Shown here: positions 1,746 through 41,173 of the stretch, piece by piece
Numbering within the stretch: position 1 is the stretch's first letter
How the letters are laid out: the number at the start of each line of letters is the position of its first letter
Assembly (NCBI RefSeq): GCF_040219335.1
Contig: NZ_JAVJSQ010000015.1
Location: forward strand, 62,001 to 126,000
DNA length: 64,000 bases
Direction of reading: 5' to 3'
Source of the DNA: Gimesia sp.
Lineage (GTDB): Bacteria > Planctomycetota > Planctomycetia > Planctomycetales > Planctomycetaceae
Notes under the pieces: generated by a model
The model's database searches: none
What the model saw: the letters and a program-made list of their open reading frames with translations, nothing else
What the model was told of the DNA's origin: nothing
Program-made: the position numbers and the translations under genes

Positions 1746-2750
1746 ATGAGAGTCTTCCAGAGAAGACGCGCATTCACGCTGATTGAGTTGCTCGTCGTGA
1801 TCGCTATTATTGCCATTTTAATTGCCTTGCTGCTTCCCGCGGTGCAGCAGGCGCGTGAGGCCGCCCGTCGGTCGCAGTGTAAGAACAACCTGAAACAGTT
1901 CGGGCTGGCTCTGCACAATTACCATGAAACCCATGGCTGTTTTGGTCAGCTGACCCTGGCTGCGTACCACGAAGGCAGTGGTGGGGCTATTCGACCCTGG
2001 ACCGGTTTCAGCCAGCAGGCGATGCTGCTCCCCTTCCTGGATCAGGCCAACATTTACAACCAGTTTGATTTCAGCCAGTCTTGTGAAGAGTCCCCCAATA
2101 CCAACAACCGCAATGCGGGAATTGGCGTTTTCCGTTGTCCTTCTGATCCAAGGTACATCAACTATGGTGAAGGGCATTTAAACTATTACATGTCGGCAGG
2201 TCCTTGTATGGGTTGGGATCCTGACCTGGGATATCAGGTAGGTTTTTCTCGCTACGAACTCATTACACGAGTTGCTGATATTCTGGATGGAACTTCGAAT
2301 GTGGTTGCGATGAGTGAACGGATAGTAGGTACTGCTAACAGCTCCACATTTAATATTAACGGCGATGTGGCAAGATCGGTTGGAACGAGCTTCAACTCAA
2401 GACAGACGACTTTCCCGACGAAGTCACAATTAGACACGCATGGAACTGCTTGTAGTAATCCTACTGCTTTCTATACACATCGTGGATCTCGCTGGATGCG
2501 GGCAGACGAGTGCTGGTTTAACACCTGGAACACGCCGAACTCGCCTAATCCGGACTGCAGTACCGGCAACGGTGGTCATGCAGGTGGTGATGCTCCTGCA
2601 GCACAGGCGGCCCGTAGCCGTCACACCGGTGGTGTGCATGCTCTGATGGCCGATGGCTCAGTACACTTTGTCTCTGAGAACATCGACTTACAGAAATGGC
2701 AGCAACTGGGCGCGATCGCTGATGGTGCCGCTGTCAGTATCAACGAGTAG
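1746..2750 (+). CDS. DUF1559 family protein with type IV pilin-like N-terminus
   Basis: The N-terminus ([20 protein letters not shown]) is a type IV prepilin cleavage/methylation motif followed by a hydrophobic helix, so the protein should be processed by a prepilin peptidase and held in the inner membrane or a pseudopilus. It continues with the DUF1559 hallmark [12 protein letters not shown] and the C-terminal [16 protein letters not shown] block. Planctomycete genomes carry many copies of this family; its role is unknown. I chose the ATG at 1746 over the GTG at 1740 because AGGAG at 1734-1738 is correctly spaced for it. The gene stands alone and is followed by a strong intrinsic terminator. 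Confidence 0.93.
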
Positions 2751-2786
2751 TCTGACTCACTGAAGTCGTATCGTGTTAACGAACAG

Positions 2787-2824
2787 AACAGCCCGGCAAT
2801 GTTTGTTGCCGGGCTGTTTTTTTT
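2787..2824 (+). terminator. Rho-independent terminator after the DUF1559 gene
   Basis: A 13-bp perfect stem (AACAGCCCGGCAA at 2787-2799, complement at 2806-2818) with a 6-base loop is followed by a T run. It lies 37 bp past the stop codon. Confidence 0.93.
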
Positions 2825-2851
2825 CAGTATAATCAGGCGTGACATGTCATT

Positions 2852-2895
2852 AGAAATTAATCATTTAGAGAAAAGAAATTAATCATTTAGAGAAA
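2852..2895 (+). repeat. Two perfect tandem copies of a 22-bp unit
   Basis: Positions 2852-2873 and 2874-2895 are identical 22-bp copies (AGAAATTAATCATTTAGAGA plus AA). The second copy ends just before the ATG at 2906 and supplies the GAGAAAGG purine tract that serves as ribosome binding site. Confidence 0.9.
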
Positions 2896-2905
2896 GGTAC
2901 TCACC

Positions 2906-3214
2906 ATGTCTAAGTTGGCGCCACTCTGTCTTGCGCTGAGTTTACTTTTTACGGGCTGTGGCGGAGGCGAGGGAACGGGGGAAACAACACCTGCCAATCA
3001 GGAAACGCCACCGACTCATGATCTGTCTGCAGTGAAATCGACTTTGAACGATATCGCGCAATCAGGTGAGATCAACAGCGCCTTTTATGGCATTCCGGAA
3101 AGTCTTAAAGAAGCGGGCAAACCGGAACTGGCAGAAGAAGCAGAGAAGCTGGGATCTCTGAAGAGTCCGAGCCAGATCAAAGCTGCTGCGAAAAAACTGG
3201 CAGACAAGCTTTAA
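2906..3214 (+). CDS. Small exported lipoprotein of unknown function
   Basis: This 102-residue protein starts with a short signal peptide ending in a lipobox (LFTGC), followed by a glycine-rich stretch and a T/P-rich linker. The mature part (about residues 35-102) is charged and helical, ending in a KAAAKKLADKL-like tail. It resembles no family I can name. The lipobox predicts attachment to a membrane on the periplasmic side. It sits alone between two terminators, and its start is supported by the purine-rich GAGAAAGG tract upstream. Confidence 0.75.
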   Translation: MSKLAPLCLALSLLFTGCGGGEGTGETTPANQETPPTHDLSAVKSTLNDIAQSGEINSAFYGIPESLKEAGKPELAEEAEKLGSLKSPSQIKAAAKKLADKL

Positions 3215-3243
3215 ACGCCGGTCGCTTCAGACCTAATACATAG

Positions 3244-3278
3244 AAAAACCTTCGGCTCAATGGGGCGAAGGTTTTTTT
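3244..3278 (+). terminator. Rho-independent terminator after the small lipoprotein gene
   Basis: An 11-bp stem (AAAAACCTTCG at 3244-3254 with CGAAGGTTTTT at 3266-3276) ends in a T run on the plus strand. Confidence 0.88.
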
Positions 3279-3306
3279 ACGTACGCAGTTTCTTGAAGCC
3301 GTCCAT

Positions 3307-3340
3307 AAAAAAAGGGAGTCGACAAGCTGTCGACTCCCCG
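3307..3340 (-). terminator. Rho-independent terminator of the Gfo/Idh/MocA gene
   Basis: Read on the minus strand, a 10-bp perfect stem (GGGAGTCGAC, 3329-3338 paired with 3314-3323) is followed by seven T (3307-3313). It lies just past the stop of the minus-strand oxidoreductase gene. Confidence 0.9.
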
Positions 3341-3366
3341 GGTATGAACTGTCTGACTAAATCAGA

Positions 3367-4653
3367 CTAAACTTTGGGTTCCCAACCGGGTTCGTATTCG
3401 CGTCCCCAGAAGGTCATGGCTTCTTTATCATCAACGATGTGCCCGTTGGTCGTATCGCACTGCAGGGTACGTCCGGTGCGGTGGGCGATGTTACCGAGAT
3501 GGCAGAGCAGGGTACTCTTGTTGCCGATTTCGATTTCAGCGTTGAGGTTCAGCGGCTCGTTATTGCGGATGGCATCCACAAAGTTCTGAGCATGTTCGCT
3601 CATGCCCTGGTTGCCGTCAACTTTCTTGACTTCCTTATCTTTGGCATCCAGAACCGTGTAACCACCGGAGGTACCGAGGATCAGGTTCCCTTTGCTGCCG
3701 AAGAAGATCACGAAATCATTCTTGTGACGGTTACAGCTGGTTCCCTGCCAGGTGATCTGCTTGCCGCCATCGAATTCAAAAGCGACGACATGCGTGTCGG
3801 GAGTCTGCTGATCGTCGCTGTAGAAGTAACGACCACCGCTGGAAACCACGCGGTTAGGAATTTCTGCACCCAGGCCCCAGCGACAGAGGTCGAGCGAGTG
3901 TACGCCGTTGTTCCCCAGTTCGCCGTTACCGTATTTCCAGAACCAGTGCCAGTTGTAGTGAATCAGGTTGTCCACGTACTTCTGACGGGGCGCTGGTCCC
4001 TGCCAGAGATCGTAGTTCAGTTCGGGAGGCACAGCCGCCGGTTTCCCTTTGCCGATGGAACCGCGGGCACTCCAGTAGTAGGCGCGGGCCAGGTGAACAT
4101 CGCCGATGATACCTTCTTTGAGCTGCTGAATCCCTTCCTGAATGGATTCACTGCTGCGACGCTGGCTTCCCATCTGGACGGCTCGTTTGTTTTTGCGAGC
4201 AGCCTCAACCATCATTTCCCCTTCTTTGGGGTTGTGGCAGCAGGGCTTTTCAACGTAGACGTGCTTGCCGGCTGAACAGCCGAGAATAGTACCGGGAGCA
4301 TGCCAGTGGTTGGGAGCAGCGACGATCAGAGCATCCACGTCTTTGTCGTCGAGGATTTTGCGGAAATCACCGATGGCCTGTGGCTTCTTTTTCGTGGCTT
4401 TTTCCACTGTCTGGGCTGCTTTGCCGGCACGGGTGTCATCCGTATCACAGACGTACTTGATTTCGACCCCATCCAGGGCACCGAAGGTTTTCGCCAGGGC
4501 CAGACCACGCTGCATCCCCATGATGCCGATGGTAACTTTCTCACTGGGGGCTTTGTTGGCGGCGGACAGAATCGCCGGGGCGGTGATGCCGGCAGCGGTG
4601 GCAGCTGCGGCAGTCTGTCCCAGGAAAGTACGACGATTGACGGAATCGGACAT
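3367..4653 (-). CDS. Tat-exported Gfo/Idh/MocA family oxidoreductase
   Basis: The 428-residue protein begins with a twin-arginine signal (NRRTFLGQTAAAATAAG), so it is probably exported folded with its cofactor. A Rossmann NAD(P)-binding start follows (VTIGIMGMQRG, about residues 40-50), and the family EKP motif is at 135-137 (HVYVEKPCCHN). The C-terminal half is the family's beta-sheet domain. Relatives oxidise or rearrange sugars or inositols; planctomycetes have dozens of copies and the substrate cannot be told here. The ATG is preceded on the minus strand by GGAG about ten bases upstream. It is monocistronic, with its own terminator. Confidence 0.92.
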   Translation of the reverse strand: MSDSVNRRTFLGQTAAAATAAGITAPAILSAANKAPSEKVTIGIMGMQRGLALAKTFGALDGVEIKYVCDTDDTRAGKAAQTVEKATKKKPQAIGDFRKILDDKDVDALIVAAPNHWHAPGTILGCSAGKHVYVEKPCCHNPKEGEMMVEAARKNKRAVQMGSQRRSSESIQEGIQQLKEGIIGDVHLARAYYWSARGSIGKGKPAAVPPELNYDLWQGPAPRQKYVDNLIHYNWHWFWKYGNGELGNNGVHSLDLCRWGLGAEIPNRVVSSGGRYFYSDDQQTPDTHVVAFEFDGGKQITWQGTSCNRHKNDFVIFFGSKGNLILGTSGGYTVLDAKDKEVKKVDGNQGMSEHAQNFVDAIRNNEPLNLNAEIEIGNKSTLLCHLGNIAHRTGRTLQCDTTNGHIVDDKEAMTFWGREYEPGWEPKV

Positions 4654-4840
4654 AATCTCTTTCTCCGTAGAATAGACTTAAAAGCGGTATGCTAAAGGCA
4701 GGATGTTAATATGACAAACTGTATTCTAGTCGCATTTCAGGCCAAATAACACAGTAAAAATCGCGCAGCGGCCTATTTCTTAAAAAAGCTAACAATCTCT
4801 TGTGCTGTCGCGGTTTACCGTCAGAGTGCGGTGGAACGCA

Positions 4841-6724
4841 TCAGGCTTTGCGAATGTAATGAGCGGCGTAACTGCGGACTTCCTGCCCGTTGAGGACATG
4901 GAACATACGAAGCTGCTGGATGGTTTCCTGGCTGAAGCGGCCCAAGGGGACGTGGATCAGTTTTTTCTGGTAGCGTTTGGCGAGGCGCTTCCAGCCGATG
5001 CCCGGCGGCGATTCGCTGAGCAGGGCAATATGCGATTCTTCACTGTAATGGCAGGCAGCGACGAGCAGTCGTTCTTCGAGGGTATCGACGAAGTCGAAAT
5101 TGACTTCATTCCAGATGTCATACACCGGTCGGGGTGGAAAGAGGAACATCGCGCCTCCGTAGGTGGAGACGCCGATTCCCGGGCCGACCATTTCCTGACG
5201 GTAGTCGGTAGCGAAGAAGGCCAGCGTCGATTCGTCCTGGTGTTCTGCATGCCAGGTGAGGCGATAGGGATAGTCGCGCGGGTCCGCAGGTGAGTCAAAG
5301 AGCATGATCACGCAATCGAGCCGGCCGCGGCTGGGGGGGAGCACTTTGACGTGGATCTCACCGGTGTGCCAGTTGCGGAGGGTTTCGCGGAGATCGAGAC
5401 CATCTTTCATACTGGTCGTGAATTTTTCGGTCCGGGCCAGATCGACGCCGAGCAGGTTCAAGGCGTGGTCTTTGACGCTGGTGCGGAACTTTTCGATGGC
5501 GACATCTTCCGGTGGCCAGCTGCACTGCTTATAGGGATTCCATTTCATTTCCCATTCGTTCTGCTGCGGTTTGGGAGGCCGGGGAACCAACTGACAGCTG
5601 CGCCAGGAGATGGGATTGCCGGGCAGGCGGTTGCTGAGTTCGACAGTGGTGCCGTCAGGGAGCTGGGCCTGTTCGATGCCGAAACGGAGTGTTTCGAACG
5701 GGAGTAAGTGTACGAACGGGTATTCGCGGGCTGTTTCTGCGATCTGGATCGCATACTGATCGCCGGCGACCTGCTGGGCGGCTTTGACCAGCGTATACAG
5801 GTCGGGAGTCATGCGACGTTCGATGAGCGAGAGATTCCGCACGTAGCGAAAATAGACCGAGAGCAGCTTGGGGGTAATCTTGCGTCCCCGGGATTTGAGT
5901 TCGACTTTGTAACGGTCCCGGGCGGTGAGTGCGAGTTCCTTGATGCCGTCGACCGAGAGGTTTTCATCATCTTCCAGTTCAGAACGGGCGGCTTCATAGA
6001 GTCCCGTGATGTAAGGGAGTTCTCCCAGCATGAACAGCAGCGTTTCGGTGTCGGCGGTATAAATGGATGTCTCGTTGACCTCTTCGTCCTCGACTTCGAG
6101 GGGCAGTTGATCGATGTAGGCGTCGTGAATCCAGGGCCAGTCAGACAGCGAGCAGACCAGCAGGATCGATTTGTATTTTTTCTCCAGTTCCCGCAGGCGG
6201 TGTGCCATCATTGTGCAGCGGTCGAGGGGTTGTCCTGCGGGCAGTTTGCTGAGCGCGGGCAGGACGGCGGCGGAAAACTTTTCGATGGGCACCTTCTTCA
6301 GTGCATAGGGATCCGGGAGGACGGCGGACATACTCTCGAAACGCTGCGTTTCCAGATCGATGAAGTGCCGGTCGATGTGTTCCATCATCGCGATGCGGAG
6401 TGCGGCGATGACCCCCTGGCAGGGATCAATGGGCACGTAGCTGTACATCTTCTGGTTGTCTTCGTCGTCCTCGTCCTGCTCCCAGGGTGGTGCTCCGGAG
6501 ATGGGGGGCTCTTCCTGCAGGACCGCGGTGATACTGGGGAGAAAGGTAATGGCCCGCTCGACATCTTCCTGAAACGAGGCGGGCAGCGGAACGGCGAGGC
6601 AGTCAAAATCGTTGTTGAGCATCACTCGACGGACTTCGATCGCGAAGTCGCCACTGCCGTGAATGAGGGGCAGCACGGAGATGCGTGGGCTGATTTTCAA
6701 AAAACTGGAATGAGGGGCTGTCAT
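4841..6724 (-). CDS. Large uncharacterised protein, possibly distantly related to DUF5682/TraB-like proteins
   Basis: The 627-residue protein is cytosolic by appearance, with no signal peptide or membrane segment. Its first 200 residues have a start of the form ISVLPLIHGSGDFA, then LAVPLP, then DPCQGVIAALRIA, FIDLETQRF and MMAHRLRELEKKY..ILLVCSLSDW. This order recalls TraB/DUF5682-type proteins (IRHHGP, then FIDLP, then MAxRLRE, then VCGAFH), but the key histidines are not conserved as I remember them. The C-terminal 250 residues (PPRPKPQQNEWEMKWNPYKQ onward) are unfamiliar. It lies 58 bp downstream of the hydroxyacid dehydrogenase gene on the same strand, so cotranscription is likely. Function unknown. 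Confidence 0.7.
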   Translation of the reverse strand: MTAPHSSFLKISPRISVLPLIHGSGDFAIEVRRVMLNNDFDCLAVPLPASFQEDVERAITFLPSITAVLQEEPPISGAPPWEQDEDDEDNQKMYSYVPIDPCQGVIAALRIAMMEHIDRHFIDLETQRFESMSAVLPDPYALKKVPIEKFSAAVLPALSKLPAGQPLDRCTMMAHRLRELEKKYKSILLVCSLSDWPWIHDAYIDQLPLEVEDEEVNETSIYTADTETLLFMLGELPYITGLYEAARSELEDDENLSVDGIKELALTARDRYKVELKSRGRKITPKLLSVYFRYVRNLSLIERRMTPDLYTLVKAAQQVAGDQYAIQIAETAREYPFVHLLPFETLRFGIEQAQLPDGTTVELSNRLPGNPISWRSCQLVPRPPKPQQNEWEMKWNPYKQCSWPPEDVAIEKFRTSVKDHALNLLGVDLARTEKFTTSMKDGLDLRETLRNWHTGEIHVKVLPPSRGRLDCVIMLFDSPADPRDYPYRLTWHAEHQDESTLAFFATDYRQEMVGPGIGVSTYGGAMFLFPPRPVYDIWNEVNFDFVDTLEERLLVAACHYSEESHIALLSESPPGIGWKRLAKRYQKKLIHVPLGRFSQETIQQLRMFHVLNGQEVRSYAAHYIRKA

Positions 6725-7898: not shown

Positions 7899-9086
7899 TT
7901 AATAAAAGCGTTCGGCCCGTTTGACGAGTTGGGGGTCTCGATCGCGGATGAGAGTCAGGTATTTTCGGGCCCGGGCGGCGGTTGTGGCGTCGGGACCGCC
8001 GTCCGAGGGATCGGAATAGCGGGAGGCGACCAGCAGGTAGCGGATGATGGCCTGGCGGATGCCTTTGTAGTCGTAGCCTTTGGCGTCATAGAGGGAGACG
8101 AGTCGATCCATAACGGTCCAGTCCTGCCAGCGCGCGAGGTCGGCAATGACGAGGTCAGCCAGTTCCGGGCGATTGAGCAGCATCCGCATGGATTGTCGCA
8201 GGCGTTCGGGGGGAATCTGATAACGCCCCTTACCGTAAGTCCACATGAATGAGACCGCTTCGCGGGCGGCGAAGAGTTCATTGGGTGATGTATTCTTCTG
8301 CTGGAACTTGGATCGCTCCAGGTGGTCGAGTCCTTCGCTGCCGGTGAGCATCAGGTAGCCTGACATCAGGCCGCCGATGCCTGAGCGGAGCCCCTGTGCC
8401 TGGACGTTGATTTTATCTTCCATGAAGTCGATGTCATCTTCATTTCCGCAGAGTCCCAGCATGAGTCCGTATAAGCCGAGGCGGGGGGCGGGCGTGGATT
8501 TGCTGCTCAACCAGTAGTGCAGCTTTTCGCGGGGGAGTTGTGGGGTCAGCGGGGCGATGTCTTCAAAGGGGGCGTTAGCGAATTCCGCAAAGGCATCGTT
8601 GGCGATGATCATATCCTGGTGTTCGAGGAACTTCAGAAAGTACTGCAGCCTTTCGGTGGTCGGTTTCTGCAGCGAGGGCGCCTGCATGACATACGCATAG
8701 CTGGCAGGGGTGATGGCCGTCGGGTTTTCCCAGAGGGGCTTGGGGCCGTGAGTGCCGGTGAGCAGGAACGGGCCGCCGGGCTTGCTGAAGTGATAGTGGT
8801 TGACCGTGATCAGCGAACCTTTTTCGTACTGAGTGCCCTGCGACTGTTTAATGACCTTCAGCACTTTGAAGACCGTGTGTCCCGGCTTCTCGATGGTGCC
8901 GGTATCGCCTTCGACCCAGCGGACCAGACAGGCGGTGTGGGCGTGTGTGAGTTTTTCGGTCAACGGGACAGAAGCCCCGGGGCAGAACGGACAGGCTGCG
9001 AGTTTTGTGGACAGCAGTGTGATCAGCAGGCAGCAGAACAGCCCAGGCCATCCATGGCAGGGTCGGATTCGATTCCAGTCGGTCAT
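7899..9086 (-). CDS. Exported protein with ACPFC mature N-terminus (paralogue 1), NTR-like start and helical C-terminal part
   Basis: The 395-residue protein has a signal peptide ending near LAACPFCPG, so a cysteine lies at or near the mature N-terminus. The next 100 residues (LTEKL..ACLVRWVEG..HTVFKVLKVIK..G.LITV) resemble the beta-barrel start of netrin/TIMP-like (NTR) domains; this is an inference. From about residue 150 the protein is helical with HEAT-like character (FANAPFEDIAPL, GLYGLMLGLCG, RPELADLVIADLARW). It is clearly a paralogue of the gene directly upstream, from which it is separated by 92 bp. The ATG has AAGGA at good spacing. No known function. Confidence 0.8.
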   Translation of the reverse strand: MTDWNRIRPCHGWPGLFCCLLITLLSTKLAACPFCPGASVPLTEKLTHAHTACLVRWVEGDTGTIEKPGHTVFKVLKVIKQSQGTQYEKGSLITVNHYHFSKPGGPFLLTGTHGPKPLWENPTAITPASYAYVMQAPSLQKPTTERLQYFLKFLEHQDMIIANDAFAEFANAPFEDIAPLTPQLPREKLHYWLSSKSTPAPRLGLYGLMLGLCGNEDDIDFMEDKINVQAQGLRSGIGGLMSGYLMLTGSEGLDHLERSKFQQKNTSPNELFAAREAVSFMWTYGKGRYQIPPERLRQSMRMLLNRPELADLVIADLARWQDWTVMDRLVSLYDAKGYDYKGIRQAIIRYLLVASRYSDPSDGGPDATTAARARKYLTLIRDRDPQLVKRAERFY

Positions 9087-9178
9087 ACCAGTTCCTTCTG
9101 GTAAAAATGTCGGTTAGTCTCGGTCAGTTCCTGCTGTTGAGCGCGACTGCAGGAACGTCGTCAGCATATGAGTGCGAA

Positions 9179-10384
9179 CTACTTCAGGAAGAAGAAGCGT
9201 TCGGCACTTTTGACGGTCTTGGGATCTTCTTCGCGGAGTTTGGCGAGAAGTTCCCTGGCTTTTTCGGTCGTAGCGGCATCAGGGCCGCCACCTTTTTTGT
9301 TTTTCCCTTTGGAGGCGACGAGCAGGTACCGCACGATGGCCCGTTTGATGGAGGGGATGTTGTAGTCTTCGGCGCCGTACATTTCCATCAGGCGGTTCAT
9401 GACGCTCCAGTCATCCCAGCGAGCGAGGTCCGCGACGACAAGGTCGGTCAGTTCGGGACGCTCGAGGAGCAGTCGCATCGATTTCCGCAGACGTTCTTTA
9501 CTGATGCGTCCGTCGCCGTAGGTCCACATGAAACGCAGGGCCTGCATGGCAGCATAGGTTTCGCTGAAGGCGACATCCTTGGGGACAAACTTGGATTCAT
9601 CGATTTTGTCGAGTCCGTCCGACCCGGTGAGCAGCAGGTAGCCGGAGATGACGCCGTCGATCCCCAGGCGGAAGTCTTTGGTGGGTTCATTGATTTTCTT
9701 TTCCATGAACTCCACATCTTCACCCTGTCCGCAGAGTCCCATCAGCAGTCCGTAGAGACCGATGCGGGTGACGGGTGTTTCGGGATCGGAGAGCCACTTG
9801 CGGATTTTTTCGCGGGGCATGTCTTTGGACAGCGTGGCGATATCTTCGTAAGGGGCGTTGGCGAATTCGGCATAGGCGTCGTTCGAGATCATCTGGTCCG
9901 GGAATTCCAGGAACTTCAGGAAGTAACGCAGCCGCTTGGATGTTTTTTCTTCTGGCGGTGGTGCCTGGGAGACGTAGTGGTAGCTGGTTTCGGTGACTTC
10001 GATCGGGTCGCCCCAGTCGACTTCTGCGCCTTTGGTGCCCAGCAGCATGAACAGGTTGCCTTTTTTGCCGGGACGATGGCGATTGATGGTGATTTTATCG
10101 CCGACTTTGAGTTTGTCCTTGTCTGACTGGCGGATGATCTCTTTGACTTCGAAGACGGTTTTACCCGCTTTTTCGAGGTCCCCTTTCTCGGCTTCGATCC
10201 ATTGGACCAGCACGGCGACGTCCGACTGAGACAGTTGCTCGGTCAGGGTCAGCGAGGGAGCGGAGCAGAAGGGACAGGCCTGGGCCACAGGTACCTGGGC
10301 CAGCAGGATCAGTCCGCAGAGCAATCCCATGACGGTGCGTTGTTTCAGGATGCGATGTTGAAAGAAGTTTCTCAGACGATTCAT
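9179..10384 (-). CDS. Exported protein with ACPFC mature N-terminus (paralogue 2)
   Basis: This 401-residue protein has a signal peptide ending near AQACPFCSA, then the same layout as its downstream paralogue: LTEQLSQSDVAVLVQWIEA, TVFEVKEIIRQ, GDKITINRH, then a helical part with FANAPYEDIATL and RPELTDLVVADLARW. Long stretches align without gaps, for example IVRYLLVAS here with IIRYLLVAS in the other, so the pair arose by tandem duplication. GAGG lies eight bases before the ATG. It sits 64 bp downstream of a CCFG-motif lipoprotein on the same strand, so it is probably the third gene of a four-gene unit. Function unknown; exported. Confidence 0.82.
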   Translation of the reverse strand: MNRLRNFFQHRILKQRTVMGLLCGLILLAQVPVAQACPFCSAPSLTLTEQLSQSDVAVLVQWIEAEKGDLEKAGKTVFEVKEIIRQSDKDKLKVGDKITINRHRPGKKGNLFMLLGTKGAEVDWGDPIEVTETSYHYVSQAPPPEEKTSKRLRYFLKFLEFPDQMISNDAYAEFANAPYEDIATLSKDMPREKIRKWLSDPETPVTRIGLYGLLMGLCGQGEDVEFMEKKINEPTKDFRLGIDGVISGYLLLTGSDGLDKIDESKFVPKDVAFSETYAAMQALRFMWTYGDGRISKERLRKSMRLLLERPELTDLVVADLARWDDWSVMNRLMEMYGAEDYNIPSIKRAIVRYLLVASKGKNKKGGGPDAATTEKARELLAKLREEDPKTVKSAERFFFLK

Positions 10385-10448
10385 GAGCCAGACCTCGTGG
10401 CGTTAGTTAACAATTTTGTAAAACGTGTTTTGTTTCCGTAAGCATTTA

Positions 10449-11333
10449 TTATTGATCGATGACGATGGCGTCGTCAATCAAGTAGATCCGCTCCAGTTCT
10501 CCGTCGATGGTTTCAGCCTTGATGTGGAAGACGCCGACCACGTCGAAGGGGCGGTTCAGAATGTAGTCAGTTGTGACGCCGTCCTTGAGGAGCACGGGGA
10601 ACAGGTCGTAGATTTTCGGGTTCTTGCCGAAGCAACAGATCTGGTTATCCCGCGCGAGGAGGAAATACTCATTGCCGGTCTGCTGGAACGGGGGATACAT
10701 GAAACCGCGAATACGAATTCGTTTGCCGTTCAGATCCTTCAACCACTGAGGCATCAGCTCGGGGGCTTCGGGAGTGACGGGTTCCATATTCATGACTTTG
10801 AGCAGGTCGATGTCATCGTAGCTGACCTGCAGGGCATCATTGGGCGCGACGTGTCGGAATGATTTGTTTTTGACCAGAATCTTGACTTCCCGTGGTTCCT
10901 TTTTCGCCGTCTGCTGCTGTTCTTCTTCCGGAGTGAGTGCCCGGAGGCTCGGATCGGGACGCTGCGCGATCAGGGGGAGGAAGTCGTCGGTGGCATCGAC
11001 GGCGGCGGTGGTTTCCGTGGGGGCCGGTTTGGCTTTGGTCCCGTTCTCCAGCGGCATCGGTTCAGCCGATTTGACTGCGGAGGTCTGGGTGATGGTTTCC
11101 GGTTCGGGTTCTACCGGCTCCGATTGCTCTGGAACCGTTGCGGCGACCTGTTCCGGCTGCTTCACAGCCGCGTCTTTCTGCTCGGGCGATTTGGCATCAA
11201 TCTGTTCGCTGTACTGACGGTACTCGGTCTGGTCTGATGAATTGCAGCCGACTCCCCAGAAGGTGAGGCTGCAGAGGGTGAGGATTATCAGACTGACTGG
11301 TGAGTATCGGGTGGGATTGTGGTGGGCCTGCAC
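10449..11333 (-). CDS. Lipoprotein with proline/glutamate-rich linker and C-terminal CCFG (DUF3299-like) domain
   Basis: I place the start at GTG 11333 because AGGAG lies nine bases upstream; an in-frame ATG at 11369 would give 12 more residues and no good ribosome binding site. The protein has a lipobox (TFWGVGC), then about 120 residues rich in E, Q, P and T (a flexible linker), then a globular C-terminal domain: LNGKRIRIRGFMYPP, NQICCFG, FDVVGVF, and a final Ile/Val-rich strand. The arrangement resembles the OB-like fold of DUF3299 proteins (inference). The neighbouring gene encodes a second copy of this domain with QCCFG. Probably anchored in a membrane facing the periplasm, in the same unit as the ACPFC proteins. 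Confidence 0.75.
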   Translation of the reverse strand: MQAHHNPTRYSPVSLIILTLCSLTFWGVGCNSSDQTEYRQYSEQIDAKSPEQKDAAVKQPEQVAATVPEQSEPVEPEPETITQTSAVKSAEPMPLENGTKAKPAPTETTAAVDATDDFLPLIAQRPDPSLRALTPEEEQQQTAKKEPREVKILVKNKSFRHVAPNDALQVSYDDIDLLKVMNMEPVTPEAPELMPQWLKDLNGKRIRIRGFMYPPFQQTGNEYFLLARDNQICCFGKNPKIYDLFPVLLKDGVTTDYILNRPFDVVGVFHIKAETIDGELERIYLIDDAIVIDQ

Positions 11334-11503
11334 GTGATCAAACTCCTGATGATCGGGTGGTTGCACCAACTTCTGGATAAAGTTGATAATGGCTCAGACT
11401 GTGAATCAACCTGAGCCATTCAAATTCGTAACGTGGTAATGAACGCGTTGGTCTGGGTCTCCGGTGTTTTCAGGCGGGTGTCTCTGTGTGGTTGTCTGGT
11501 CGA

Positions 11504-12220
11504 TTATCTGTAGGAAGTACGAGCCTGTTCGAAGTGGGTCCCCTTCAGCTGGTAGACCGGACGTAATTCACCGGCCTGGGTCGGGGCTTCTGCGACGAAT
11601 TCACCGGCAACGGAAACGAGACCGGAATAGAAGTCGGCTCGATTCTTACCCTGCATTTCGACCAGGATCATATCTTTTACGTCGGGCTGGCCGCCGAAGC
11701 AGCACTGGCCGTTATCTTTAACCAGAATGAAAGACTGCAGGTCTTCGGTCTGGCGTGTGGGGTACATGTAGCCTTTGACGAAGACTTTCTGCTTGTCCAT
11801 TTTGAGTACGTCGGGATTGACGCTGGTCACGCCATCCTTCTGGACGAATTCTTTGGTTGAAATGTCGGTCGCGAAGTTGATGCGCTGGTAGCCTTCGGGA
11901 ACTTCGTGTGCATAGACGAAGGACTGATAGCTGATGCCGGTGACCAGGAAGAAGGTCGACAGCATGAGACCGGAACGGGCTACCATTTTGCCGCCCAGTT
12001 CACCGCCTGCCCGGCGGATATTGAACATACTGATCAGCGAGACCACGATACCGAACACGGCCACACCCAGTCCGATGATCCCGAACAGGGCGATAAAGGA
12101 GAGCAGTCCCAGTACCAGGCCCACGACAGCAGTCGGGGGAACCGGCTTGTAGGAAAACTCATCCTGACCTTCGAAGGAACTTTGCAGCGAGTGATTGGAG
12201 CCATCAAGAACTTGCGACAT
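11504..12220 (-). CDS. Membrane protein: DUF4190-like double helix plus CCFG (DUF3299-like) domain
   Basis: Residues 27-85 hold two membrane helices around GVAVFGIVVSLISMFNIRRAGG, as in DUF4190, and a third hydrophobic helix follows at about 83-100 (LMLSTFFLVTGISY). The remaining 130 residues are a periplasmic domain with KVFVKGYMYP, NGQCCFG and a strand-rich end, like the C-terminal domain of the neighbouring lipoprotein. AAGG lies nine bases before the ATG. It is followed by the lipoprotein gene after 170 bp. A role in metal handling next to the ABC transporter is inferred from context, not shown. Confidence 0.75.
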   Translation of the reverse strand: MSQVLDGSNHSLQSSFEGQDEFSYKPVPPTAVVGLVLGLLSFIALFGIIGLGVAVFGIVVSLISMFNIRRAGGELGGKMVARSGLMLSTFFLVTGISYQSFVYAHEVPEGYQRINFATDISTKEFVQKDGVTSVNPDVLKMDKQKVFVKGYMYPTRQTEDLQSFILVKDNGQCCFGGQPDVKDMILVEMQGKNRADFYSGLVSVAGEFVAEAPTQAGELRPVYQLKGTHFEQARTSYR

Positions 12221-12666
12221 CTTGCAAGGCCTTTCAAAATTCAGCAGAAATAAACAGGGAATACAGTTAATTATCGCAGAATCACAGGTTGCCCGGCCAG
12301 AACAACTGGCTGATGTTCAGAACGGGGTCTGGATTTTTTACTATCATATCAGGGAGGGGGGATGAGAACATCCCTGAAATCATCCAGAACCGGTCAGAAA
12401 ATTCTGAAGTTCCGGGTAAAGTGAGCCTGGCTCTTTAGATCCCTTGCTGAGCGACAGGCAGAATGCTCCCTGACACCAGTCCTTTATAATAGTATATACG
12501 GAATGGAATGGATTTCCGTTGAATTTTTATCAATCTTAATTTAAAGCGGGTCCCGTCAGGAAAACATGCATCGCAAGTGCCTATTTCAAAACGGTTTATG
12601 GCGAAACGCTTGTTGCTGTTCCCTTATCGTAAAACCACCGAATAGGAGACCGGTTCAAGCGGACGA
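12221..12666. other. 446-bp gene-free stretch between the permease and the CCFG membrane protein gene
   Basis: No gene is seen. The interval lies inside a run of minus-strand genes and should hold the promoter of the four-gene downstream set. I see no clear operator or terminator. It makes the ATPase-permease pair and the four downstream genes two transcription units in all likelihood. Confidence 0.45.
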
Positions 12667-14028
12667 TCAGGTATCACTCAAAGTGCTGGCGACGTCGGTG
12701 CGGTAGGCGGTCATCGCGGGGATGAAGCCGACCAGTGAGGCCAGGACGACCAATACCGGCAGCAGGATCAGTTCGACTGAGCTGAAAGCGAACGGATTGA
12801 TCAGCAGTCCGCTGCGGGCCTCGATGATCGGGGCGGCGGCGAAGACCAGGCCGTGTCCGAGCAGGATACCCAGGATGCCTCCCCCCAGGCAGAGCAGAAC
12901 GGACTCGCTGAGAATGATGGTGAAGACTGCGGTGCGGCCGGCACCCAGGGCCCGCATGATGGCGATCTCCCGTTTGCGGTCGGCCATTGAGTTGTAGATG
13001 CTGACAAAAATACTGACGCCGGAGACGACGATGATCAGGCTCGTCAGAATGATGAGCATCGTGCGTACGTTGCCTACGATGTTGATCATCAGCCAGCTGA
13101 TCTGCTGAATTGGATTGACAGCCTGGGCCTTGTTACCTTCTTTGAGTTCGGACTGCAGTTTGATGGTGGAAAAGCCGCGGAGGCGATCGCCTTTCATCTG
13201 GACCAGAATCGCAGTAACCTCTTTCTGCGCGTCGGGAACTTCGTGCCCGTGATCGTGTCCATGGTCATGACCGCTGTGATCATGATGATCGTGGCCGGCG
13301 TTTTCCTTGAGGATTTTCTGCAGTTCGGCTTCGTCGATTTTTTCACCGAAGAATTCGGCTTCGCGGCGGAGTGCTTCTTCCAGCGGTTTTTCGTGACCGG
13401 ATACCTGGTAGAACCCGCGCAGATTGACGAAGACGGTGCGGTCGTTCGGCGTGCCCGTTGGTGCGAGGATGCCGACGATCTTGAATTTTTCATCGTGGAC
13501 GTGACCACTCTCCGCGGAGCCGTGAATCAACTGGAATTCATCTCCCATTTTCCAGTTGTTTTGTTTCGCGACGGCAGAACCTATGACGGCATCCCAGGTG
13601 CCGGGCAGGAACTTGCCATCCTTATTAATGCGGAAGTGCCGCCCCGGGATGTACTCCAGAGCGAAGTAACGCGGTATGGTGCCGACAATTGGAAAGCCGC
13701 CTTCCTCGGTGACATCGCCGATCGCGAAGGGGATGGCTTCTTCGATACGGGGATCTTTTTTCAGTTCTTCGTAGTAGCGGTAGGGGAGATTCTCAATCGG
13801 GGCACCGACGCGGAAGACGGTATTCAACACCAGCTGCAGCGGGCTGCCCTTGGGGCCGATGATGAGGTCGTAGCCGCTGGCGGTCTGGTTGAACATCTTG
13901 TCGATGACGCCGTTGATGACCAGAACGGAGATCATCAGCGTCACACCCAGGGCCACGCTGAGGGCCGTCAGTGCAGAGGCGAGGCGACGTTGTTTGATGC
14001 TTTTCCAGGCGATGGTCAGTGTATTCAT
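12667..14028 (-). CDS. ABC transporter permease, FtsX/MacB type, with histidine-rich periplasmic loop
   Basis: The 453-residue protein has the MacB/LolE-type layout: one N-terminal membrane helix (about 18-40), a large periplasmic domain (about 45-310), and three C-terminal helices (about 315-345, 365-395, 415-440). The FtsX core shows RKREIAIMRALGA. Residues 245-262 (HDHHDHSGHDHGHDHGHE) form a histidine/aspartate-rich metal-binding-like stretch inside the periplasmic domain, unusual for this class. It is 64 bp downstream of its ATPase gene. The context with CCFG/DUF3299-like proteins suggests metal transport or metal-dependent cargo handling (inference). Confidence 0.88.
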   Translation of the reverse strand: MNTLTIAWKSIKQRRLASALTALSVALGVTLMISVLVINGVIDKMFNQTASGYDLIIGPKGSPLQLVLNTVFRVGAPIENLPYRYYEELKKDPRIEEAIPFAIGDVTEEGGFPIVGTIPRYFALEYIPGRHFRINKDGKFLPGTWDAVIGSAVAKQNNWKMGDEFQLIHGSAESGHVHDEKFKIVGILAPTGTPNDRTVFVNLRGFYQVSGHEKPLEEALRREAEFFGEKIDEAELQKILKENAGHDHHDHSGHDHGHDHGHEVPDAQKEVTAILVQMKGDRLRGFSTIKLQSELKEGNKAQAVNPIQQISWLMINIVGNVRTMLIILTSLIIVVSGVSIFVSIYNSMADRKREIAIMRALGAGRTAVFTIILSESVLLCLGGGILGILLGHGLVFAAAPIIEARSGLLINPFAFSSVELILLPVLVVLASLVGFIPAMTAYRTDVASTLSDT

Positions 14029-14092
14029 AATGAGAATCTACTTTGTAGTCGGTTCGCTGAGAAGAAAATAAGAAACGAAAAACCAGGACGAA

Positions 14093-14767
14093 TCAGACCT
14101 GTGCGTGGACCTTGTTGAAGTCGGTCAGCGTTTCAACCCGTTCAAACTGGCTGGCAACTTCCTGGGAGTGGGTGACCAGCAGCATGGCGATCTGGTGCTG
14201 AGTGCAGGCTTCGCGGAGCAGTTTGAGGATGGTTTCCTGGTTGGCGACATCGACGTTCGCCGTCGGTTCGTCGGCCAAAAGTAGTTTGGGTTGATTGGCC
14301 AGGGCCCGCGCGACGGCGACCCTTTGCTGTTCCCCGACGGACATCTGTTTGGGGCGGTGATGCAGGCGATGCTCGAGTCCCACGAGGGCCAGCAGTTCTT
14401 TCGCCCGGTCGCGGCTCGCTTTTTTTCGTGAGAAGCTCATGCCGAGCAGGACGTTTTCCAGGGCTGAGAACGCGGGGAGCAGATTAAAGGTCTGGAAGAC
14501 GAAGCCGATGCGTTCGGCGCGAAAGCGGTCACGAACGACTTCAGGCATGGAGGCGATTTCGGTTCCGGCGATGGTGACTTTTCCACTGTCGGCGGTGGTG
14601 ATGCCGGAAATGACGTTGAGCAGTGTCGATTTCCCCGAGCCACTCTCGCCGATGAGAACAACCTGTTCCTGTTCTTTGACTTCAAAGCGTTCGATATCCA
14701 GGATGGGGAGTGTCGAGCCATCCGGTTCACGGTAGCTCTTTTTGACATTTTCCAATAGCAGGGACAT
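14093..14767 (-). CDS. ABC transporter ATP-binding protein, LolD/MacB-N type
   Basis: I choose ATG 14767 (protein MSLLLENVKKS) with GAGG five bases upstream, rather than the 26-residue longer form. The 224-residue ATPase carries the Walker A (GESGSGKST), the Q loop (FVFQTFNLLPAFSALENV), the signature (SVGEQQRVAVARAL) and the Walker B (LLLADEPTANVD), then an H loop (LVTHS). It energises the FtsX-like permease encoded just downstream. LolD-class ATPases serve extraction or export from the outer leaflet rather than classic import. Confidence 0.93.
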   Translation of the reverse strand: MSLLLENVKKSYREPDGSTLPILDIERFEVKEQEQVVLIGESGSGKSTLLNVISGITTADSGKVTIAGTEIASMPEVVRDRFRAERIGFVFQTFNLLPAFSALENVLLGMSFSRKKASRDRAKELLALVGLEHRLHHRPKQMSVGEQQRVAVARALANQPKLLLADEPTANVDVANQETILKLLREACTQHQIAMLLVTHSQEVASQFERVETLTDFNKVHAQV

Positions 14768-39561: not shown

Positions 39562-40008
39562 ATGAAACATCTGTCTCAAGCAGAAGAAATTGAGGAAATC
39601 CGCCAGCTGGTGCGGAAGAGCGGCCTGCGGAGTACGGCGGCCCGGATTACCGTGATCCAGTTTTTACGAAAGGCGAAGTCTCCGCTGACGCACGCGGAGA
39701 TTGCAGAAGATCTGACCCCCATGGGCTTTGATAAAGCGACCGTGTATCGCAACCTGATTGACCTGGCGGATGCAGGTCTGGTGAAACGGACCGAGCTGGG
39801 CGATCATGCCTGGCGGTTCGAATTACGGAACCCGGATGAGCCGGAAGATGCAGAGCATCCGCACTTTGTCTGTACCGAATGCGGCAGTGTTTCCTGTCTG
39901 CACGATGTGGAATTCAAGACTCCCAAGAACAAGCAGTGGGCGGCGGTCGGTAAAGTGACCGAGATCCTGCTCAAGGGAATCTGCAGCGAGTGTGAAGAGG
40001 AAGAGTGA
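39562..40008 (+). CDS. Fur-family transcriptional regulator
   Basis: The 148-residue protein is a typical ferric/zinc/peroxide regulator: a winged helix with DKATVYRNLIDLADAGLV (57-74), a metal site with HPHFVCTECG (99-108), and a second CSEC (141-144) that, with C104 and C107, forms the structural zinc site. It is convergent with a ZIP metal transporter gene, seven bases apart, so Zur is a reasonable guess; Fur or PerR cannot be excluded. The ribosome binding site is weak. Confidence 0.9.
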   Translation: MKHLSQAEEIEEIRQLVRKSGLRSTAARITVIQFLRKAKSPLTHAEIAEDLTPMGFDKATVYRNLIDLADAGLVKRTELGDHAWRFELRNPDEPEDAEHPHFVCTECGSVSCLHDVEFKTPKNKQWAAVGKVTEILLKGICSECEEEE

Positions 40009-40015
40009 GCGCTGG

Positions 40016-41173
40016 TCAGTGGTCGTGCTTGTGCTCGTGCGAATGACCGTCGTCTGATTCTTCCGCGTGCGAACCGTGGTTGTGAACGTGTTCGGGTTCG
40101 AGAAAGCCGATGCCATACGCGAGGGCGATGCCGAGCAGGAGTACGAACGAGAGTCGGAAGCGGTTATGCGAATGGAATTCCATTTCCGGCAGCAGGTCGC
40201 CCAGTGAGATACAGATGAAGACGCCCGCGGCGAAGGCCAGGGCACAGCCGATGATGATGTGCTGGTTATCGGAAAACTGCTGCACGCCCAGGAAGAAGAG
40301 CAGGGCACCGAGGGGGCACATCAACGCGAAGCCGATGTTGACGGCGTTTCTCCAGCCGGCGGACCAGCCACCCGCGGCCATCAGTGATGTGATCGAAACG
40401 GCATCTAGTGGTTTGTGTAGTGCGATCGCCAGAAAAGTTCCGAGGCCGAACAAAGAGAGAAAGACTTCGTGGTGTTGCTCGGCTATGATACTGGCGCCGA
40501 GAGCGAGCCCGTCAATCAGTGTGTGCAGGGCCAGACCCAGGGCGATGCCGACCCAGCTCAAATGATGCGAGTGGGCATGCGTGTGCGAATGGACCGGCGC
40601 GTGCGCGTGATGCTGATCGCAGTCGTGATCGTGGTCATGGTCATGGTCATGGTCGTGGGGGTGTCCTTCTTCTTCGAGTTCCACGGTACCGTGCTGGTGA
40701 AAGTGGAAGGTTCTCAGCAGGAAGAAGAGCGTGATGATGCCGGTCATCATCCACCAGACGGCGCGGTCAATCGATCCCATTTCGGCGACCGCGTGTGGCA
40801 GAAGATGAAAGACGCCGATGCCCAGCATGAGTCCGCCGACAAAACTGATGAGCGTTTCCATGCGGGTGTGTGTCAGTTTGACAAACGAGGGGAGCCAGCC
40901 TCCCATTAAGGACGAGAAGACAATCAACGCGCAATAAATGCCGAGCAGCGTGTATGACCAGCCGGTGTTGTTTTCGGAGGCCGGTTCTGTCGTGGATTCC
41001 TCAGTGGCGGTGCTGGTTGTTTTTTCCGGGTGCGGGTGAGTGTGTTCGGCAGCCGCGGCCTGGGTGGGGCGCGAGGTGAAAAAGCCGGGCGCTACCAGGA
41101 AGGTGACCAGGGGAATCGTGAGCAGCAGAAAGGTCAACCGCACGTCGTTTTTGAGGTGTGACAGGGGTTTCAT
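40016..41173 (-). CDS. ZIP-family metal transporter with long histidine-rich loop
   Basis: The 385-residue protein has about eight membrane helices. The family motifs are LALHTLIDGLALG (helix IV) and AIALHKPLDAVS (helix V; Asp where HxxxE usually has Glu). The loop after helix III (about 171-204) is a run of HD/H residues (HPHDHDHDHD and HAHAPVHSHTHAHSHH), and the N-terminus and C-terminus are also histidine-rich (for example HGSHAEESDDGHSHEHKHDH). It imports or exports zinc or iron-like metals through the inner membrane. In DNA, the histidine tract appears as a tandem GTCATG repeat near 40630-40660. Confidence 0.92.
   Translation of the reverse strand: MKPLSHLKNDVRLTFLLLTIPLVTFLVAPGFFTSRPTQAAAAEHTHPHPEKTTSTATEESTTEPASENNTGWSYTLLGIYCALIVFSSLMGGWLPSFVKLTHTRMETLISFVGGLMLGIGVFHLLPHAVAEMGSIDRAVWWMMTGIITLFFLLRTFHFHQHGTVELEEEGHPHDHDHDHDHDHDCDQHHAHAPVHSHTHAHSHHLSWVGIALGLALHTLIDGLALGASIIAEQHHEVFLSLFGLGTFLAIALHKPLDAVSITSLMAAGGWSAGWRNAVNIGFALMCPLGALLFFLGVQQFSDNQHIIIGCALAFAAGVFICISLGDLLPEMEFHSHNRFRLSFVLLLGIALAYGIGFLEPEHVHNHGSHAEESDDGHSHEHKHDH

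Follow-up and report, generated by a model that had tools for sequence, protein, structure and literature searches.

The window analysed here is a 64,000-nucleotide stretch of the genome of a planctomycete, Gimesia sp., and the subject of this report is a set of six minus-strand genes at positions 7899-14767. These genes encode an ATP-binding cassette (ABC) ATPase, an FtsX-type permease, two proteins with a CCFG motif and two exported ACPFC proteins (Table 1). The locus is real and conserved, and what is new about it is that it belongs to the Zrg kind, known from Vibrio (zrgABCDE) and Pseudomonas aeruginosa (PA4063-PA4066), while apparently having no ZrgA and having a novel secreted protein family nearby. 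A first-pass annotation, made from the letters of the window, had described a candidate metal-handling locus at this place; the coordinates and strands that it gave were confirmed, as were all six reading frames. Read along the minus strand, the ATPase gene comes first, followed by those for the permease, the CCFG membrane protein, the CCFG lipoprotein-like protein, ACPFC-B and ACPFC-A, with intergenic gaps of 64, 446, 134, 64 and 92 bp. The frame of P0003 opens with TTG, and another start is possible. That the six genes are real follows from the conservation of their relatives across many genera; the best named relative is a metagenome-assembled genome of Gimesia (L097), whose permease is 92% identical to P0005.

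Table 1. Positions of the six genes and associated features in the window
Feature	Positions	Strand	Remarks
ABC ATPase P0006 (LolD/MacB/FtsE class)	14093..14767	-	224 aa
FtsX/MacB-type permease P0005, relative of the Zrg permease	12667..14028	-	453 aa
His-rich loop of P0005	13240..13293	-	residues 246-263, 9 His
Candidate metal site of P0005	13393..13524	-	stretch with invariant H169, H178, D196 and H212
CCFG membrane protein P0004	11504..12220	-	CCFG motif at 11693-11704; three predicted helices and an OB-fold DUF3299-like domain
CCFG exported protein P0003, DUF3299-related	10449..11369	-	probably lipid-anchored; CCFG at 10626-10637
ACPFC exported protein B, P0002	9179..10384	-	N-terminal CPFC followed by a beta domain that may be NTR-like and a HEAT-like solenoid
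ACPFC exported protein A, P0001	7899..9086	-	paralogue of P0002, 51% identity
Inverted repeat TTGCA-N7-TGCAA	14840..14856	not applicable	possible operator, upstream of the ATPase gene

The ABC pair and its invariant residues

The ATPase P0006 matches PF00005 at 123.4 bits, and its best NCBIfam model is LolD, at 205.8 bits against a cut-off of 307.75. The permease P0005 matches PF12704 (MacB_PCD, residues 18-208) and PF02687 (FtsX, residues 327-444), both over cut-off, and the His-rich loop lies between the two spans. Its scores against the equivalog models are 45.1 bits for LolC/E, with a cut-off of 362.45, and 35.3 bits for MacB, with a cut-off of 966; the ATPase and permease are encoded by separate genes. 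All matches of the pair to the NCBIfam LolD, LolCE, MacB and ADOP models are far under their cut-offs. A Pfam scan of the locus proteins found no adaptor protein among the six genes.

The relationship to Zrg systems was approached from the side of the proteobacterial permease. When the permease of a P. aeruginosa plasmid locus (L179) was searched in the window's own genome (7.93 Mb in 45 contigs as searched), P0005 came first at 104.7 bits plus a further segment at 57.1; the runner-up scored 35.2. The DUF3299 protein of L179 is letter-identical, over the aligned stretch shown, to 4hsp, the PA4066 structure according to PMC8561739, which makes L179 either PA4063-PA4066 itself or a close copy of it. 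This reciprocal search, the zrg loci reached with the permease and the residues common to the permeases (see below) support the proposal of the first-pass annotation that the pair is a planctomycete counterpart of the zrg ABC genes, as far as sequence comparison can tell.

Two branches of P0005 relatives on plasmids were seen among the 12 of 115 matching records that were opened (about half of the 115 are Phaeobacter, and L216 and L223 are unannotated). Permeases with 27-30% identity have DUF3299 genes as neighbours in Catenovulum, a strain of Rhodobacteraceae, P. aeruginosa, Phaeobacter and Sulfitobacter (L177-L180 and L221), and DUF2796 is also present in three of these five loci; the Sulfitobacter locus has two DUF3299 genes. 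In the other branch, on plasmids of Deinococcus radiodurans, Shinella, Paracoccus, Allomeiothermus and Azospirillum (L217-L220 and L222), a gene annotated as alkaline phosphatase (checked against PF00245 in L218) accompanies the ATPase, the permease and a CPFC protein of about 140-160 amino acids. No report of such phosphatase-linked ABC pairs was found among the literature matches listed. The small CPFC protein has no DUF3299 match in Pfam; its profile gives 96.1% over 106 columns against the CCFG lipoprotein profile and 74.0% against the DUF3299 of zrg loci. Either this protein or DUF3299 stands beside the ABC pair in 11 of the 12 opened loci (in L223 by Pfam), so an OB-fold (oligonucleotide/oligosaccharide-binding fold) partner with Cys residues seems to accompany the permease class in each branch; neither was seen in the frame list of the unannotated L216. 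Kinship between the CPFC motif of the ACPFC proteins and that of the phosphatase-linked protein was considered and set aside as convergence, the profile comparison giving 32.7% over 13 columns only.

The first-pass annotation had pointed to a His-rich stretch in the permease. The stretch is there, with nine of the 15 histidines of P0005 packed into 18 residues, and from the family its placement would be periplasmic. Its histidine content varies among 81 planctomycete permeases, with at least four in 60 and only 0-1 in 17, and the loop was accordingly rejected as a conserved working metal site. The invariant histidines lie elsewhere in the periplasmic part. H169, H178, D196 and H212 are present in 89 of 89 aligned permeases, comprising 85 from planctomycetes (that of the window, 80 from named loci and four from families f2, f5 and f7) and four from Proteobacteria; the 80 named loci are close relatives, selected by similarity as the best 80 of 492, and conservation counts among them are not independent. 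The four residues are among 11 invariant positions within residues 45-300 of P0005, with up to three gaps allowed. Eight further relatives from Proteobacteria and Deinococcota all have H169, H178 and D196; H212 is aligned in two of them, and the other six have a His two residues earlier. In all five paralogous FtsX-type permeases examined D196 and H212 are kept and H169 and H178 are absent, which means that the latter two are not a general requirement of the fold. The alignments thus describe a His-rich loop that is common but optional and a site of four residues that is constant, and these four may jointly bind a metal.

A second MacB/FtsX-type ABC pair was seen in L190 (G000:C40:112000-122000, positions 1891-6687), where the genes overlap and a ZnuA-type gene (PF01297) accompanies them. 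Here, as in L072 (6033-10666), an upstream gene encodes about 600-660 amino acids and the permease is without H169 and H178. Two ACPFC genes adjoin the second pair in L072, and L195 resembles these loci in appearance.

The CCFG and ACPFC proteins

The CCFG pair had been read as accessory proteins different from those of zrg loci, a view that did not survive comparison of profiles and folds. In a search of the PDB with family profiles, the sole entry below an E-value of 0.001 was 4hsp, at 7.1e-6 for the CCFG membrane family and 7.2e-4 for the lipoprotein-like family (A3). The predicted structure of P0004, with a mean predicted local distance difference test (pLDDT) value of 80.1, has 4hsp at rank 1 in Foldseek (E=3.1e-5, template modelling (TM) score 0.51 by target length), followed by other OB folds. 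Profile-profile comparison of CCFG with the DUF3299 proteins of zrg loci gives 96.2%, against 0.2% for an ACPFC control profile. Within the families, 19 of 21 CCFG membrane proteins and 10 of 18 lipoprotein-like proteins match DUF3299 at E of 0.5 or lower, and over 40 genomes searched DUF3299 exceeds its cut-off in 16, eight of them among the 17 Gimesia genomes, where the match falls in the CCFG membrane gene. A query with P0004 recovers the gene of P0003 (E=4e-9). Profile scores of one CCFG family against the other may be inflated, as the profiles were built from matches that can include both. The 4hsp profile matches and the fold of P0004 reject the idea of wholly new families, and the two proteins are best described as relatives of DUF3299 (the family of ZrgE and PA4066) that are duplicated and have diverged. 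Since P0004 and P0003 miss the curated DUF3299 score, the label is limited to 'related to DUF3299'. A search for P0004 on plasmids gave no match at E 0.1, though DUF3299 genes occur there, and the link between the two rests on profiles and fold.

The other matches of P0003 are weak: DUF1980_C at E 0.04, which is also matched by four of 18 lipoprotein-like family members, and TIGR03943 at 19.9 of 88.8 bits. The label of lipoprotein that it had been given has its basis in a Gly-Cys after a hydrophobic stretch that is conserved in its family and is not a textbook lipobox; P0003 is probably anchored by lipid, and P0004 would be anchored by its membrane helices, which are DUF4190-like. Elsewhere, a second and diverged paralogue of the CCFG membrane protein was seen in L094 (4928-5608; G000:C28), with a DUF4190 match and no DUF3299 match; a zinc theme around it was rejected, the neighbours tested being ordinary, unrelated enzymes. 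In another planctomycete family DUF3299 is fused behind TPR repeats (L074, 3945-5489, and L075, 4658-6067; 24.5 and 35.6 bits, cut-off 22).

The ACPFC pair had been called new, and this is borne out. Sequence searches of Pfam, NCBIfam and the PDB gave no significant match beyond weak HEAT_2, found in 10 of 30 members; the remainder were sub-threshold zinc-finger matches in two and scattered matches of single members. The model of P0002 (pLDDT 89.6) has a signal helix followed by a beta domain and an alpha solenoid, and its best Foldseek matches are HEAT/ARM-type repeats (E 2.4e-4). The beta domain matches 1uap, the NTR (netrin-like) domain of PCOLCE1, weakly and at rank 16 (E=6.6e-3, probability 1.00, TM 0.52 by target length, root-mean-square deviation 8.1), and Pfam and profile searches gave no NTR or TIMP match in sequence. 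These results support a new protein family with a beta domain and a HEAT-like solenoid; that the beta domain is perhaps NTR-like is, on this modelled structure, a lead and not a result.

A Cys-x-x-Cys lies near the end of the signal peptide in 59 of 66 ACPFC proteins and reads CPFC in 48 of the 59; the set, from which named-locus matches of 150 bits or less were dropped, includes seven proteins without CxxC and some genomes twice. Of the 59 N-termini, 46 are compatible with signal peptidase I and 19 with a lipobox, and because the two classes overlap both a free and a lipidated N-terminal Cys are possible. The motif of TIMP is CxC, and a TIMP-like metal-binding N-terminus for the ACPFC proteins is an idea only. 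Distant relatives of the ACPFC proteins (about 21-25% identity) were seen on Rhizobium plasmids, in 12 records; those in L213-L215 have CxxC, with CAIC or CVLC N-termini, and their neighbours include HupE/UreJ genes (L214, L215) and a gene for a rotamase (L213, L215).

Gene neighbourhood and zinc context

A clear orthologue of the permease is present in 43 of 59 genomes, 17 of which are Gimesia, and these 43 represent 26 genera. The permease, CCFG and ACPFC types lie within 10 kb of one another in 26 of the 43 genomes and 10 of the 26 genera. The closer association is between CCFG and ACPFC, which are at most 10 kb apart in 35 of the 37 permease genomes having both and in 18 of 20 genera. Of the permease genomes, five are without a strong CCFG membrane match and two without ACPFC; CCFG matches weaker than about 1e-20 were dropped from this count, and G021 and G045 were thus counted as being without CCFG. 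The order of genes in family f5 is ATPase, permease, ACPFC, CCFG, CCFG.

Among the named loci, the ATPase is directly upstream of the permease in 70 of the 73 with room upstream. For the 65 with at least 3 kb downstream, CCFG is present in 19 and all three types in 18; ATPase and permease matches below 300 bits were dropped from these counts. Three of 31 ACPFC frames (one in L101 and two in L102) lie outside alignment A5, and three of 24 CCFG membrane frames outside A6. In 149 genomes across the phylum the ACPFC profile matches 10 at 1e-15, and all 10 also match the permease. The permease matches 40 of the same genomes at 1e-50, with 11 above 290 bits and 29 at or below 212 bits, many of the matches covering the first 215 positions alone.

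The first-pass annotation had treated the six genes as one run, and in the window they are consecutive on one strand. The gap between the permease and CCFG membrane genes is 0.45-0.6 kb in eight of the 16 Gimesia genomes with both genes on one contig and 2.2-5.4 kb in the other eight. In L058 (7242-9981) and L097 (11552-14291) it holds DUF5690, PhyH and HD-type genes (Pfam in L058). Given this variable gap and the genes inserted in it, the six genes are not necessarily one operon.

ACPFC loci away from the ABC pair were compared with ABC, ZnuA, CCFG and M24 reference sequences. One of 14 (L072) stands beside the second ABC pair with ZnuA, and the other 13 matched none of the references used. 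An M24/prolidase-like metallopeptidase gene was seen near the ACPFC/CCFG cluster in 12 loci (L059, L061, L063, L065, L107, L109, L118, L121, L124, L134, L149 and L085; identified by Pfam in L059 and L085). Four pairs among these loci are each a single contig taken twice, and the recurrence of the gene is perhaps plain gene order.

When 14 upstream stretches from Gimesia were aligned, with some genomes represented twice, the inverted repeat upstream of the ATPase gene proved to be conserved. It is exact in L097, L098, L099 and L101, has one mismatch in L100 and 0-1 mismatches in L142, L173 and L175, and was not found in the remaining named loci examined for it. The window holds one match, against 0.09 expected; the 7.9-Mb genome holds six, against two for a reversed-pattern control and about 7.5 estimated for equal bases. 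With regard to zinc genes at large, the own genome has three Fur-family matches and two ZnuA-type genes, one on the same contig at a distance of about 263 kb (L191), the other in L190. A Fur-family gene was seen 25 kb from the locus (39562-40008, plus strand; PF01475, 58.5 bits), convergent with a gene for a ZIP-family zinc transporter (40016-41173, minus strand; PF02535, 106.7 bits) that has a His-rich loop of its own.

Interpretation and comparison with known systems

In published accounts, zrg operons are Zur-regulated, and a Vibrio znuA mutant requires ZrgA for zinc-free growth, with growth unaffected in single knockouts of zrgD and zrgE (PMC9820375, PMC9817125); zinc regulation and zinc phenotypes are also treated in PMC11481552. 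Against this background the locus is read as a planctomycete Zrg-type system that moves a metal or metal complex in the periplasm, with a probability of roughly 0.55 for this reading together with the following mechanism. ATP hydrolysis in the cytoplasm would drive motion of the periplasmic part of the permease, and the substrate would not be carried through the inner membrane, as in other MacB/Lol-class transporters. At H169/H178/D196/H212 this part would hold a metal complex or a transition metal, the likeliest being zinc, with the His-rich loop serving as an optional low-affinity reservoir. The stroke would transfer the cargo, in one direction or the other, between the permease and its partners, namely the OB-fold CCFG proteins (one in the inner membrane, the other probably anchored by lipid) and the exported ACPFC proteins. 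The latter would occupy the position of ZrgA in proteobacterial systems. The net effect could be either uptake or release. That a MacB/Lol-class ATPase moves a metal or metal complex in the periplasm is likely; that the metal is zinc is an inference.

Several observations weigh against this reading. In 17 of the 43 permease genomes the three gene types do not all lie within 10 kb of one another, although contig breaks may account for some (for example G006 and G028), and ACPFC occurs without a permease orthologue in nine of the 59 genomes, so that the neighbourhood conservation predicted for the locus holds well for CCFG with ACPFC and less well for all three types. P0004 scores 20.6 bits against PF11736 (DUF3299), with a cut-off of 22, P0003 has no match to it at E 1, and a search of the own genome with DUF3299 gave none at E 0.001. 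The periplasmic zinc protein ZrgA (DUF2796, PF10986) is over cut-off in none of 58 genomes, with weak matches in five and none in the own genome, and a diverged DUF2796 at the locus is unsupported by this search. A consensus for the Zur box gave no match at three or fewer mismatches before the ATPase gene; one match with three mismatches is located a long way upstream of the CCFG membrane gene, and the whole window holds six. The inverted repeat is no more than a possible operator. Zinc is a candidate metal here, with no ZrgA over cut-off and no Zur-box match before the ATPase gene. Finally, the published reading of PA4063-PA4066 (PMC11481552) is export of pyochelin-cobalt and not uptake of zinc.

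The neighbourhood data also bear on whether the six genes form one system at all. It is rather unlikely, and still the most serious competitor, that two independent neighbours happen to meet in Gimesia, namely an ABC pair of the Zrg type and a CCFG-CCFG-ACPFC cluster that has a separate role in the envelope. Such independence would explain why in nine genomes the CCFG-ACPFC block holds together and is either on a different contig from the permease or over 10 kb away from it, why the permease is missing from as many genomes that have ACPFC, why half of the Gimesia gaps are wide and contain unrelated genes where they were read, and why 46 of the 65 named loci with enough downstream sequence have no CCFG or ACPFC there. 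It fits poorly with the 10 of 26 genera in which all three types are close, in two gene orders (families f1 and f5), and with a chance of about 0.3%, on a rough estimate, that two unlinked genes lie so close in a 7-Mb genome; a DUF3299 gene, moreover, adjoins the same permease class in Proteobacteria too.

The nature of the cargo is a separate matter. PA4064/PA4065 have been modelled as a MacB-type transporter for which export of pyochelin-cobalt is proposed (PMC11481552, PMC13083405), and by analogy the planctomycete pair might be a Lol/MacB-like exporter of a lipoprotein, peptide or metallophore for which metal is secondary. The best ATPase model, the domains of the permease and the HlyD-like adaptor gene upstream in the Rhodobacteraceae relative L178 are what such an exporter would predict, and PMC11481552 favours it for the Pseudomonas genes. 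The large shortfall from the LolD and LolCE equivalog cut-offs, the lack of an adaptor among the six genes and the absence of H169 and H178 from all five paralogous FtsX permeases, taken from the same or related genomes, make this distinctly unlikely.

A wider extension of the Zrg-type reading is unlikely as a joint claim: that the ATPase, a permease with the His site and a Cys-bearing OB-fold partner might be an ancient core common to Planctomycetota, Proteobacteria and Deinococcota and mechanically move or load periplasmic transition metals, with only the outer partner exchanged. The outer partner would then be ZrgA in zrg systems, alkaline phosphatase in the second branch and, in planctomycetes, ACPFC as a novel secreted metal carrier with an N-terminal Cys-Pro-Phe-Cys on a TIMP-like domain.

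The locus matters because the published functions of the class conflict, zinc import in Vibrio standing against pyochelin-cobalt export in Pseudomonas. A branch without ZrgA separates the exchangeable from the fixed parts and defines a core to test, the four permease residues and the OB-fold partner. It also extends the study of the Zrg class to free-living bacteria outside the pathogens, and it gives a first genomic context for a new secreted family with a HEAT-like solenoid. Literature searches on DUF3299, zrg with MacB, and planctomycete zinc, in which subscription journals were mostly uncovered, returned no planctomycete Zrg locus or invariant His site among the matches listed.

The beta domain of P0002 may resemble NTR/TIMP-type domains in its match to 1uap and in a mature N-terminus that may start at or near the Cys-x-x-Cys; against this, the match is weak, a HEAT-like solenoid follows and the motif is CxxC rather than the CxC of TIMP. 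LolCDE and MacB have the same class of ATPase and permease fold, with the differences that the equivalog scores fall far below cut-off and no adaptor is among the six genes; unlike MacB, the Gimesia ATPase and permease are in separate genes. The phosphatase-linked pairs are closer, with a related permease carrying H169/H178/D196 and a CPFC protein that aligns to the CCFG profile, yet they have an alkaline phosphatase neighbour, a single CPFC protein and no annotated ACPFC or DUF2796. In contrast to zrgABCDE and PA4063-PA4066, the Gimesia locus is without ZrgA/DUF2796 and adds ACPFC proteins, and its DUF3299-like protein is duplicated, one copy being fused to helices and the other lipoprotein-like, with CCFG in place of ACIH. 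What it has in common with them is an ABC ATPase, a MacB/FtsX permease and an OB-fold protein of the DUF3299 kind, together with the conserved H169/H178/D196/H212 of the permease.

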